From Erythrobacter litoralis (GTDB taxonomy: Bacteria > Pseudomonadota > Alphaproteobacteria > Sphingomonadales > Sphingomonadaceae), in the NCBI RefSeq assembly GCF_001719165.1, contig NZ_CP017057.1, positions 2,356,001 through 2,420,000 on the forward strand: DNA of 64,000 nucleotides. The letters are read 5' to 3'. Below are positions 61,573 to 64,000 of the stretch, one piece after another. A program made the position numbers and the translations under genes. Below the pieces are notes generated by a model, which saw only the letters and a program-made list of their open reading frames with translations, was not told where the DNA came from and did no database searches. Within the stretch, counting starts at the first letter, position 1. The number at the start of each line of letters is the position of its first letter.

Positions 61573-62187
61573 ATGTCTGCAAGCGAAGCGATCGATAGAG
61601 AGCCAGCAGGAAAAGCAGCGGGAGAGCCTAGTATCGTGGCGTTTCTCGATTGCCTGGCGCAGCTTGACGGGCGAATCCGGCTCGTTGTCGATCGCGACGG
61701 CATGATCGTTGCACGCCCGCGTCTCGCCTCCTCACTTCTCGGCAACATGATCGGCGACAACCAGCCCGCATCGCGCGGCAATGGCGGCGTCGCCTCGCGC
61801 ATCGTGGCAGCGCCCCGGCTGGCCGACCGCCTGCTGAGAGTGCGTGGCGACGAAACGGAAATCGCCATGCTCGAACGGGCGGACGGAGGTGGACCGATCA
61901 TCGTTCGCGCCTCGGCGATCGACGACAGGCATGTCTGCATTCTTTTCCTGATGGCGAGCGCGAAAAGGTCCGGCCGTATCGAGGAGCTCGGTTCGCTGTT
62001 CGGGCTGACGGCGTGCGAAGCCCAGGTCGTGCTCGACATGATTGAGGGACGCTCGCCCGCGGCGATCGCCGACCGGCGCGGCAATTCGATCCACACGATC
62101 CGCGCGCATATCCGGCAATGTCACCAGAAGATCGGCGCGAAAACCCGCGAAGAGATGCTGAGTCGTATTGCCAGAATCTGCCTTTAG
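61573..62187 (+). CDS. LuxR-type transcriptional regulator of the adjacent secreted cluster
   Basis: 204 residues from ATG 61573, preceded by GAGGGGG. The N-terminal part (about 20-130) is not a recognised autoinducer or receiver domain; it has no phosphoacceptor pocket and could be a small PAS-like or ligand module (LVVDRDGMIVARPRL). The C-terminal helix-turn-helix (about 143-204, LTACEAQVVLDMIEGRSPAAIADRRGNSIHTIRAHIRQCHQKIG) is of the LuxR/GerE class. It sits head-to-tail before the three secreted-protein genes and probably regulates them. Confidence 0.85.
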   Translation: MSASEAIDREPAGKAAGEPSIVAFLDCLAQLDGRIRLVVDRDGMIVARPRLASSLLGNMIGDNQPASRGNGGVASRIVAAPRLADRLLRVRGDETEIAMLERADGGGPIIVRASAIDDRHVCILFLMASAKRSGRIEELGSLFGLTACEAQVVLDMIEGRSPAAIADRRGNSIHTIRAHIRQCHQKIGAKTREEMLSRIARICL

Positions 62188-62208
62188 GTTTTTATTCAAT
62201 CGTCAATT

Positions 62209-62256
62209 TTGACTAATCGAATTTCATTGTTATCTACTTAGTTAATATTCGATTAG
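62209..62256 (+). promoter_or_regulatory. Promoter with perfect 10-bp inverted repeat before the secreted cluster
   Basis: TTGACT (62209-62214) and TATCTA (62231-62236), 16 bases apart, make a good sigma-70-like promoter. CTAATCGAAT (62213-62222) and ATTCGATTAG (62247-62256) are exact inverted copies with a 24-base spacer, overlapping the -35 box and lying just past the predicted start. The surroundings are very AT-rich for this genome. The arrangement suits a regulator dimer or looping repressor; the neighbouring LuxR protein is the obvious candidate. Confidence 0.65.
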
Positions 62257-62381
62257 TATAAAACCGGATGCATCCAGTCCCCGATACGGCGGATTATATC
62301 CCAGTCACGTCAAACCACACGGATCGATCCGATCTGGTCAGGTTTTGATCGGCTCCACGGAGTCGGACGGGAGGAGGAATC

Positions 62382-62876
62382 ATGCATTCGACATGGATTT
62401 TCGGCAGGCGCCCGCTCGCCTTGCCCTGGTTTCTAATGGCATCCCTTGCGGGGGCCATACCTCTTCCGGCGATTGCCCAGGAAACAGCCGCTACCGGCGC
62501 ACAGCCAGCAAGCGATGGCCACATCGTCTATTCCCGTGAAGTCGGCCACAGCGTCGGCGCACCGAATTTTCCGGGCCGCAGCCACGAGGCCGTGACCGCC
62601 CCGACGGGCATGCTCATAGCGACCGTGTCGAACGGGCTCGTCCCGCTTTCCGACCTCGAGACAGCCAGTGTGACCGCATCGCTGCCCCGCTCGCTCGCGG
62701 TTCTCGATCTCGGTGGGGCGCAGGGCATCATCGCCAGCACGCTCGGCGGGCAGGCGAACCAGATCAACCCATCCGAAAACGCCTCGCTCAACCCCGGTTC
62801 GACGATCGGAACGGCGATGCAATCGCTTCACGGCGCGCTCGGCAGCCTTTCGGTCATCACCGGGGGCAAGCCATGA
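62382..62876 (+). CDS. Secreted protein of the Fap-like cluster, unknown family
   Basis: 164 residues from ATG 62382 (after GGAGGAGG). A signal peptide about 1-32 ends AIAQ. The mature part has a Gly/Asn/Ser-rich C-terminal half (IIASTLGGQANQINPSENASLNPGSTIGTAMQSL) and ends GGKP. No catalytic motif. It overlaps the next gene by 4 bases (ATGA), so both are made together. Candidate roles: chaperone, nucleator or minor fibre subunit; none can be proven from sequence. Confidence 0.65.
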   Translation: MHSTWIFGRRPLALPWFLMASLAGAIPLPAIAQETAATGAQPASDGHIVYSREVGHSVGAPNFPGRSHEAVTAPTGMLIATVSNGLVPLSDLETASVTASLPRSLAVLDLGGAQGIIASTLGGQANQINPSENASLNPGSTIGTAMQSLHGALGSLSVITGGKP

Positions 62877-63526
62877 GCGGCGCGCGAAACATGTCGTGGC
62901 CCGCCTTCGCCATGCTGGCTTTCGGGCCGATCGTTCCGGTCGCGGGCCTGTGTGCCCAGAGCGCCGGGTCGGCCACCCAATCCCCGTCCGAGGACGTGCG
63001 AACTCAGGATGTCGTTGTCCTCGAAGGCGAACAGGGTGCGGGCGGGAGCGGACGTCTTGCGGTCAATATCGCGGCCGGCGATCTCAACCAGCAGGCCTCC
63101 AGCGTGGTTCTGGCCCAGGGTGCGATCGCGGTGACCCGCGAACGGGTGGTCCAGAAAAGCGAGGCGAGCGGCGCCGAGGAGCGGTCGACCAGGATCGTTC
63201 TGGGCGACGGGACCTTTGCGGGCCATGCGGGCCTTGCCAGCCTCAACATCACTGCCGGGACGGGCAACCAGTCCGCCAACCTGGCTTCCATCGCAATCGG
63301 ACAGGCAAGCGCGCTGTCGGACCAGCTGCTCGAGCAGACGCGCGCTCCCATCGAACCATCCGGGGGGCCGAGGGCGGCCGCGAGCGGGCGGAATGACTCC
63401 ATCGAAATCGACGATGGGGCATTCGCCGGCGGAAGCGGCGTTTTCCAGGCCAACCTGATCGGTGGCGAGAGGAATTCCTCCGCCAACACCTTCTCGCTCG
63501 CCGTGATGGCGGGTGGGCAACCCTGA
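62873..63526 (+). CDS. Secreted protein with three Fap-like amyloid repeats
   Basis: 217 residues with a signal peptide (about 1-28). Three imperfect repeats occur at about residues 47-83, 108-143 and 177-215. Each has a short strand, a Gly-rich turn (GAGGSG, FAGHAG, FAGGSG) and then NIAAGDLNQQAS, NITAGTGNQSAN or NLIGGERNSSAN, ending in alternating aliphatic residues. This is close to the Fap repeat of Pseudomonas functional amyloid (GNVGVNVAAGDNNQQANAAALA type). I infer an amyloid-forming or nucleating subunit. No cysteines lie in the repeats. Confidence 0.65.
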   Translation: MSGARNMSWPAFAMLAFGPIVPVAGLCAQSAGSATQSPSEDVRTQDVVVLEGEQGAGGSGRLAVNIAAGDLNQQASSVVLAQGAIAVTRERVVQKSEASGAEERSTRIVLGDGTFAGHAGLASLNITAGTGNQSANLASIAIGQASALSDQLLEQTRAPIEPSGGPRAAASGRNDSIEIDDGAFAGGSGVFQANLIGGERNSSANTFSLAVMAGGQP

Positions 63527-63547
63527 GTGAACTGAAGGAGAAACGAG

Positions 63548-64000
63548 ATGAAGAAACTTCTGCTTTCGTCCGTCGCGGCGTCGGCGTTCATCGCCATGCC
63601 GGCTATGGCCCAGGACGCGGATGTCGAGGTCAGCGTCGATCTCGACTATTCGAACAACATCGACACCAGCCTCACCACCGATGCGACGTTCTTCAAGCTC
63701 GTCGGCATTCTCGGCGGTGCGATCGTGACCGGTGTCGTCGAAGTCGACAGTTCGGCGGTGGCGATCACCGATGCCAAGCAATTGCAGCAGGGCGTCGCGG
63801 TGACCTATCGTGAAGAGAACGAGCTCAACGGCGAGAACGGCTATGTCGATCCCATCTTCGGCCCGGCCTGGAGCGAAGCGGGCAACGACCCCAATGACGA
63901 TCTGATCGACGGCTCCCTCGAACCGCGCATCCGCGCCGGTTACTTCGCGCCGATCATCAATACCGTGGACGAGTTCTCGATCGATTCCTCGGGCAATACG
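63548..64000 (+). CDS. Large secreted protein of the Fap-like cluster, 3' end outside window
   Basis: 151 residues visible, from ATG 63548 with a very strong site AAGGAGAAA. The signal peptide (about 1-21) ends AMAQ. The mature N-terminus is rich in Asp, Asn, Val and Ser (VEVSVDLDYSNNIDTSLTTDATFFKL, GVVEVDSSAVAITD) and reaches FSIDSSGNT at the window edge, where a Fap-like repeat block might begin. It is the third gene of the unit, 21 bases after the repeat protein. Whether it is the main fibre subunit needs the next kilobases. Confidence 0.7.
   Translation, partial: MKKLLLSSVAASAFIAMPAMAQDADVEVSVDLDYSNNIDTSLTTDATFFKLVGILGGAIVTGVVEVDSSAVAITDAKQLQQGVAVTYREENELNGENGYVDPIFGPAWSEAGNDPNDDLIDGSLEPRIRAGYFAPIINTVDEFSIDSSGNT

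Follow-up and report, generated by a model that had tools for sequence, protein, structure and literature searches.

To determine what kind of system is specified by the three signal-peptide genes that follow a LuxR-type regulator gene at the end of a 64,000-nucleotide stretch of Erythrobacter litoralis DNA (the window; C1:2356001-2420000 of a 3.25-Mb single-contig genome), we examined these genes together with 19 kb of genome sequence starting at C1:2416000 (L003, in which a position equals the window position minus 59999). An earlier note on the window had proposed a functional-amyloid (Fap-like) operon that did not follow the fapABCDEF order of Pseudomonas. The window ends within the third operon gene, fapC, and the operon is complete in the genome continuation, where the order, with all genes on the + strand, is luxR–fapA–fapB–fapC–fapD–fapE–X–fapF. 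The locus belongs to the Fap system, within which it represents a novel variant, and we regard it as probable that it constitutes a complete Sphingomonadales-type Fap operon with X as a helper protein and control by a GerE-type regulator. The amyloid assignment made in the earlier note is borne out by matches of five products to Fap models, but its statement on gene order was wrong, since the genes visible in the window are fapA, fapB and fapC, and fapD, fapE, X and fapF continue the series. The FapF-like porin and the C39 peptidase that it proposed to look for past 64 kb were both found.

Fap identity of the operon and its products

Five of the operon products match the NCBIfam model for the corresponding Fap protein. 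The product of fapB (62873..63526), the minor amyloid subunit or nucleator, matches NF058557 (FapB; E 5.6e-18, 65 bits against a curated cut-off of 190), and that of fapC (63548..64000 in the window, running on to C1:2420567; 339 amino acids), the major amyloid subunit, matches NF058558 (FapC; E 1.5e-19). In the block formed by fapD, fapE, X and fapF (C1:2420737-2424382), the fapD product (L003 4738-5475) matches NF058616 (FapD; E 2.7e-66, 223 bits, cut-off 330), the product of fapE (L003 5487-6344), positioned after fapD, matches NF058559 (FapE; E 2.7e-17, 63 bits, cut-off 250) and that of fapF (L003 6980-8383) matches NF058560 over residues 32-467 (FapF; E 5.1e-111, 371 bits, cut-off 700). 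All five matches lie under the curated naming cut-offs. A FapB match was obtained in 19 of 369 sampled genomes of the phylum, and only 7 of these 19 exceed the FapB cut-off; we therefore read the curated cut-off as a naming threshold and not as the border of the family. Fap operons of this kind are easily missed in annotation because their five clear matches fall below the scores required for automatic naming.

For comparative purposes, we assembled a first set of 21 fap loci, including that of the window, from the host genome and 60 relatives and from 396 genomes of the order, 20 of which have FapC at >160 bits (10 further genomes, with E 6.7e-5 to 8e-4, were set aside before counting). FapD is a C39 cysteine peptidase with an intact triad and predicted activity; the triad residues Cys75, His159 and Asp175 are invariant in all 21 loci. 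The FapF protein combines a coiled-coil-like N terminus, judged by eye, with a barrel. Among solved structures, the profile of the FapC family matches the FapC entries PDB 9nqd (E 5e-17) and 9u4u (E 7e-17). Searches of the host genome for CsgG and for curlin repeats were empty, and no curli system was found.

The assignment of fapA (62382..62876), a candidate periplasmic chaperone of the amyloid subunits, draws on several comparisons. Its product matches the FapA model NF058617 at E 0.061, which is doubtful alone, and the same model matches 10 of 20 homologues at E up to 1 (best 1.5e-5). When the FapA family hidden Markov model (HMM) was run against the host genome, its sole match was at an unrelated place. 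With a Sphingomonadales FapA profile, the gene preceding fapB was recovered at 11 of the 16 fap loci from outside the Alphaproteobacteria, and hhalign aligned the Sphingomonadales FapA alignment with seven FapA-position proteins from such loci, chosen out of the 11 found by our own profile, at E 4.9e-12 over 64 columns. On profile comparison and position, the gene upstream of fapB is assigned as FapA. The structural description of the three window genes given earlier also stands: fapA and fapB share an ATGA overlap at 62873-62876, a GGAG-type ribosome site lies ahead of fapC, and the products of fapA, fapB and fapC have signal-peptide-like starts, as judged by eye.

FapB carries three repeats, NIAAGDLNQQAS, NITAGTGNQSAN and NLIGGERNSSAN, as had been recognised from the window alone. 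In 5000 composition-preserving shuffles, the repeat motif, which was composed after the repeats had been seen, occurred on average 0.0014 times per protein and never more than once, and the three FapB repeats are therefore not due to chance. The further repeats sought in the third protein are present as three FapC cores of the G-N-x-G-x-N..G..N-x-Q-x-N kind (149-165, 236-252 and 299-315 in the first sequence), which are invariant in a 20-sequence alignment; the strict repeat motif scores just one of the three. Fap repeats are simple and rich in G, N and Q, and surface proteins of unrelated function could resemble them by composition. We consider this explanation highly improbable for the present locus, given that separate Fap components are recognised in the canonical order, FapD and FapF, which lack repeats, among them.

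The operon shares with Pseudomonas fapABCDEF all six genes and their order, three repeats in both FapB and FapC, a C39 FapD with an intact triad, and a FapF composed of a coiled-coil-like N terminus and a barrel; it differs in the presence of X between fapE and fapF and of an adjacent GerE-type regulator gene. A 2018 review states that no regulatory protein is among the products of the operon expressed in P. aeruginosa (PMC6173800). A 2013 survey limits Fap to Beta-, Gamma- and Deltaproteobacteria, with none in Alphaproteobacteria (PMC3792158). Section 7 of the 2018 review names Fap in 'Erythobacter', Porphyrobacter and Novosphingobium (PMC6173800), which rules out that Fap is new to the group. 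The novelty claimed in the earlier note is therefore only partly supported: what we did not find described is the additional gene X and the adjacent regulator, for which the open-licence PMC papers searched gave no description. A 2025 review terms Fap evolutionarily 'fixed', with conserved gene order, and its section 10 reports from a GTDB screen that >90% of 1602 clusters have the canonical order (PMC12822426); in another 2025 GTDB screen, 950 of 1172 clusters had all genes (PMC12392863). Both screens report mostly fapABCDEF or fapBCDEF and used models of the known genes, and an inserted gene would therefore go unseen.

The additional gene between fapE and fapF

The sixth operon gene, X (L003 6377-6964), in which the locus differs from the canonical operon, lies outside the window, and because it intervenes between fapE and fapF, a contiguous six-gene fapABCDEF is not found here. 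Its product begins with a signal-peptide-like sequence and comprises a predicted HdeB-like domain, small and helical, in which two cysteines are invariant, as well as a peptidoglycan-binding domain. The C terminus matches Pfam PG_binding_1, the N terminus gives a sub-threshold HdeA match, and no Fap name is returned; against PF06411 the N-terminal domain scores 13.5 bits, below the curated cut-off of 22, and this family matches 9 of 20 X members at E up to 1 (best 0.0033). X differs from the HdeA/HdeB acid-stress chaperones in a sequence that falls under the Pfam cut-off, in its fusion to a peptidoglycan-binding domain and in being encoded in an amyloid operon. CsgH is an extra periplasmic factor of alphaproteobacterial curli systems; the two cases are alike in that such a factor is attached to an alphaproteobacterial amyloid operon, and differ in the amyloid family.

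X occupies the position between fapE and fapF in 20 of the 21 Sphingomonadales loci, including that of the window, and the encoded proteins form one clade (support 0.999). Among the 396 genomes of the order, X scores >200 bits in 19, all of which belong to the 20 with FapC at >160 bits, and no genome had X at this score without FapC; genomes with lower scores (13 at 100-156 bits and 32 weaker still, the latter matching mostly in the peptidoglycan-binding part) were set aside from these counts. The exceptional locus is that of Sphingomonas hankyongi (G328), which has fap genes, no X and a detached fapF. These data bear on the possibility that X is a bystander or a general envelope protein, such as a peptidoglycan-linked stress protein, co-transcribed with the operon and dispensable for the fibre. 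The retention of fap genes by S. hankyongi is what this explanation would predict, peptidoglycan-binding domains are common, and the X-like proteins of the 13 genomes at 100-156 bits all occur outside the 20 genomes with strong FapC matches; moreover, 9 of 14 X-like loci adjoin genes of secreted nucleases, metalloproteases or PEP-CTERM proteins. We nevertheless judge a bystander role unlikely, considering the single clade and constant slot of X, its occurrence at high score exclusively with FapC, and the observation that 10 of the 21 loci have, at the thresholds used, no flanking gene in common with any other.

A second alternative is that X acts on FapF and not on the subunits, gating the pore by anchoring or spacing the trimeric coiled coil of FapF at the peptidoglycan. 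X adjoins fapF in the 20 loci that contain it and the sole X-less locus is the one with a detached fapF; in addition, Rouse et al. 2017 propose that the FapF coiled coil may interact with, or anchor beneath, the peptidoglycan (PMC5557850). The link to FapF depends on this one exceptional locus, however, and the N-terminal domain of X resembles small chaperones and not a coiled-coil partner. We hold action on FapF to be possible, with less than even probability.

X-like proteins were also observed away from fap operons. Proteins combining HdeB-like and peptidoglycan-binding domains (L096, L099-L102 and L105-L108) are encoded beside PEP/VPLPA-CTERM genes at six loci and beside ExeM-type nucleases at three, and these neighbourhoods suggest a wider family of wall-linked secretion partners. 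Among the matches listed, two genomes (G1091 and G1075) encode near full-length X-like proteins and lack a FapB match; in this search, at most eight candidates per genome were scored and matches confined to the peptidoglycan-binding part were set aside. In another alphaproteobacterial family, genome G540 has the order B-C-D-E-X-F, and the FapF and X trees, with low support, accommodate shared ancestry with the Sphingomonadales X as well as separate recruitment.

The GerE-type regulator and a scheme for the operon

The regulator gene at 61573..62187 encodes a LuxR-type protein with a predicted PAS-like N-terminal domain and a GerE helix-turn-helix. The GerE match scores 22.1 bits (E 1.2e-4), just under the Pfam cut-off of 23.5, and each of the 17 homologues aligned gives a GerE match at E up to 1, the best at 3.9e-12. 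In the window protein, no Pfam match was obtained outside the helix-turn-helix, and none to PAS. In Foldseek searches with an AlphaFold2 model (mean predicted local distance difference test score 81), the best match was VqmA, a PAS-GerE protein (E 1.8e-6, probability 1.00), with EL222 of Erythrobacter litoralis next after the VqmA entries; superposition on VqmA is globally poor (template modelling score about 0.34, root-mean-square deviation about 13). The modelled regulator would share with VqmA and EL222 the arrangement of a PAS-like sensor and a GerE helix-turn-helix, and differs from them in its 14-20% identity and poor global superposition. A LuxR of the acyl-homoserine lactone quorum-sensing kind was considered and rejected: the 17 members together match 16 Pfam families at E up to 1, and no autoinducer-binding family is among them. 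The cysteine motif of LOV-type domains was not seen by eye in the regulator.

The presence of a LuxR-type regulator upstream, noted from the window, extends to the relatives. Of the 19 first-set loci with upstream sequence, 17 have a full-length GerE gene immediately before fapA in the same orientation, and the other two have a short GerE-only protein encoded on the opposite strand, of 89 amino acids (G018) and 103 amino acids (S. hankyongi, where this open reading frame sits between fapF and fapA). Among 23 named loci with upstream sequence, a set that overlaps the first, 17 have the full-length gene and four a short divergent one; the exceptions are a Parasphingorhabdus locus (L114) with a Crp-type gene instead and a metagenome-assembled genome (MAG; L133) with none adjacent. 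In G540 the nearest GerE gene lies 3 kb off on the other strand. The regulator profile gave no match at E <0.05 in the 16 non-alphaproteobacterial fap loci, in which a short GerE protein could be missed because the profile scored short GerE proteins weakly (E 2.6e-5 to 0.02).

The adjacent GerE-type protein most likely controls fap transcription. The alternative is that it is not the main switch and that control comes from elsewhere, for example from a pair of PAS kinase and FixJ-like response regulator or from stress genes. A PAS histidine kinase and a response regulator akin to those of the host lie near the operon in 9 of the 21 loci, downstream of fapF in part of the lineage, and the regulator upstream of fapA differs between lineages in length, strand and type; for Pseudomonas fluorescens, BrfA, which responds to cyclic di-GMP, is given as the known regulator of fapA (PMC13101488). 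Control from elsewhere nonetheless seems rather unlikely to us, since a GerE-type gene adjoins fapA in all 19 first-set loci, whereas 8 of the 9 loci with the two-component pair fall in one clade of the FapF tree.

The region between luxR and fapA contains an imperfect inverted repeat (62207..62262), with 16-nucleotide arms (62207-62222 and 62247-62262) that are 88% complementary, as a candidate fapA operator or promoter region. Of 17 luxR-fapA intergenic regions, 9 contain the hexamer TGACTA on one strand or the other, where 0.92 would be expected; the sequences are related, and shuffled intergenic sets also contain 6-mers common to up to 12 of 17 sequences. These observations hint at most faintly at a conserved operator upstream of fapA.

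From the gene content, order, conservation, predicted folds and catalytic residues, which are established, we infer a scheme for fibre formation, the role of X and the target and signal of the regulator. Published work describes FapA as a chaperone, FapD as a periplasmic protease that is required, FapF as a trimeric exporter and FapC as the fibre (PMC5557850, PMC12822426). By homology, FapA would keep FapB and FapC unfolded in the periplasm, FapD would carry out the processing needed for export, and FapF, through its coiled coil and outer-membrane barrel, would export the subunits, whereupon FapC and FapB would stack via their three imperfect repeats into fibres for aggregation and biofilm. 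X, apparently added between FapE and FapF in this lineage as a seventh protein, would most likely be a wall-tethered periplasmic helper, retaining either the subunits or the coiled coil of FapF at the peptidoglycan while export proceeds, and the PAS-like/GerE one-component protein, perhaps sensing a ligand or redox state, would most likely govern transcription. A stronger version, which we advance tentatively and think more apt to fail than to hold, is a distinct alphaproteobacterial Fap machine in which X would be a required peptidoglycan-tethered HdeB-like chaperone, handing unfolded subunits to FapF with or beside FapA, and in which, as part of the same tentative proposal, the operon's own GerE-type switch (a PAS-type one-component sensor in most of the loci seen) would couple the fibre to a small-molecule or redox signal. 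A conserved seventh component beside the exporter, together with a linked regulator, would reveal lineage-specific parts in the Fap export machine and would offer a handle on how aggregation-prone subunits are managed between the inner membrane and FapF and on what turns the fibre on in Erythrobacter-type bacteria.

Distribution and gene neighbourhood

When named genomes were scanned with the FapC alignment, 25 loci were obtained, 13 of them already in the first set. They come from Erythrobacter, Alteraurantiacibacter, Altererythrobacter, Allopontixanthobacter, Pontixanthobacter, Parasphingorhabdus and Sphingomonas, and from MAGs named Erythrobacter, Altererythrobacter, Novosphingobium, Erythrobacteraceae, Sphingomonadaceae and Sphingomonadales, with one (L113) titled Alphaproteobacteria. 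Across the class (385 genomes), FapC was detected in G540 and in three Sphingomonadales, with a further weak match in G716; around this weak match our own profiles found no other fap gene within 16 kb.

In the host, an Hsp20 gene is next after fapF, and the region L003:8655-18973 encodes Hsp20, Usp, a REC-GerE response regulator, a PAS kinase and PfkB as well as phosphoribosyltransferase, erythromycin-esterase-like, baeRF and GH94 proteins. Of the nine loci with the two-component pair, eight also have an Hsp20 gene and six a Usp gene. Such gene sets are typical of low-oxygen or stress regulons, and this neighbourhood suggests that fibre production may be tied to a low-oxygen or stress response.

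Several further arrangements of fap-related genes were observed. Sphingomonas edaphi (G137; L083:9148-10068) and G269 (L088:7146-7994) encode shorter, diverged FapC proteins of 306 and 282 amino acids, respectively, each of which appeared as two fragments in the search of the order, in one case with a stop within the stretch searched. A second, divergent Fap-like system is present in two genomes of the same genus (L029:4776-9544 and L030:6697-12321); there, FapB/C-like subunits of 354-387 amino acids (NF058557 at 4e-20 and 4e-21) precede a C39 FapD and a FapF that is only distantly related (31-33% identity). In other relatives from the order (L028 and L031-L039), FapD and FapF homologues are encoded close together, sometimes on opposite strands and in L037 with a short FapE-like gene between them, and FapB, FapC and X were not found by our own profiles at these loci, which possibly represent further export systems based on FapD and FapF. 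Outside the Alphaproteobacteria, G870 (L174) contains two tandem fap sets, in the second of which neither fapF nor fapA was recognised within the stretch fetched.

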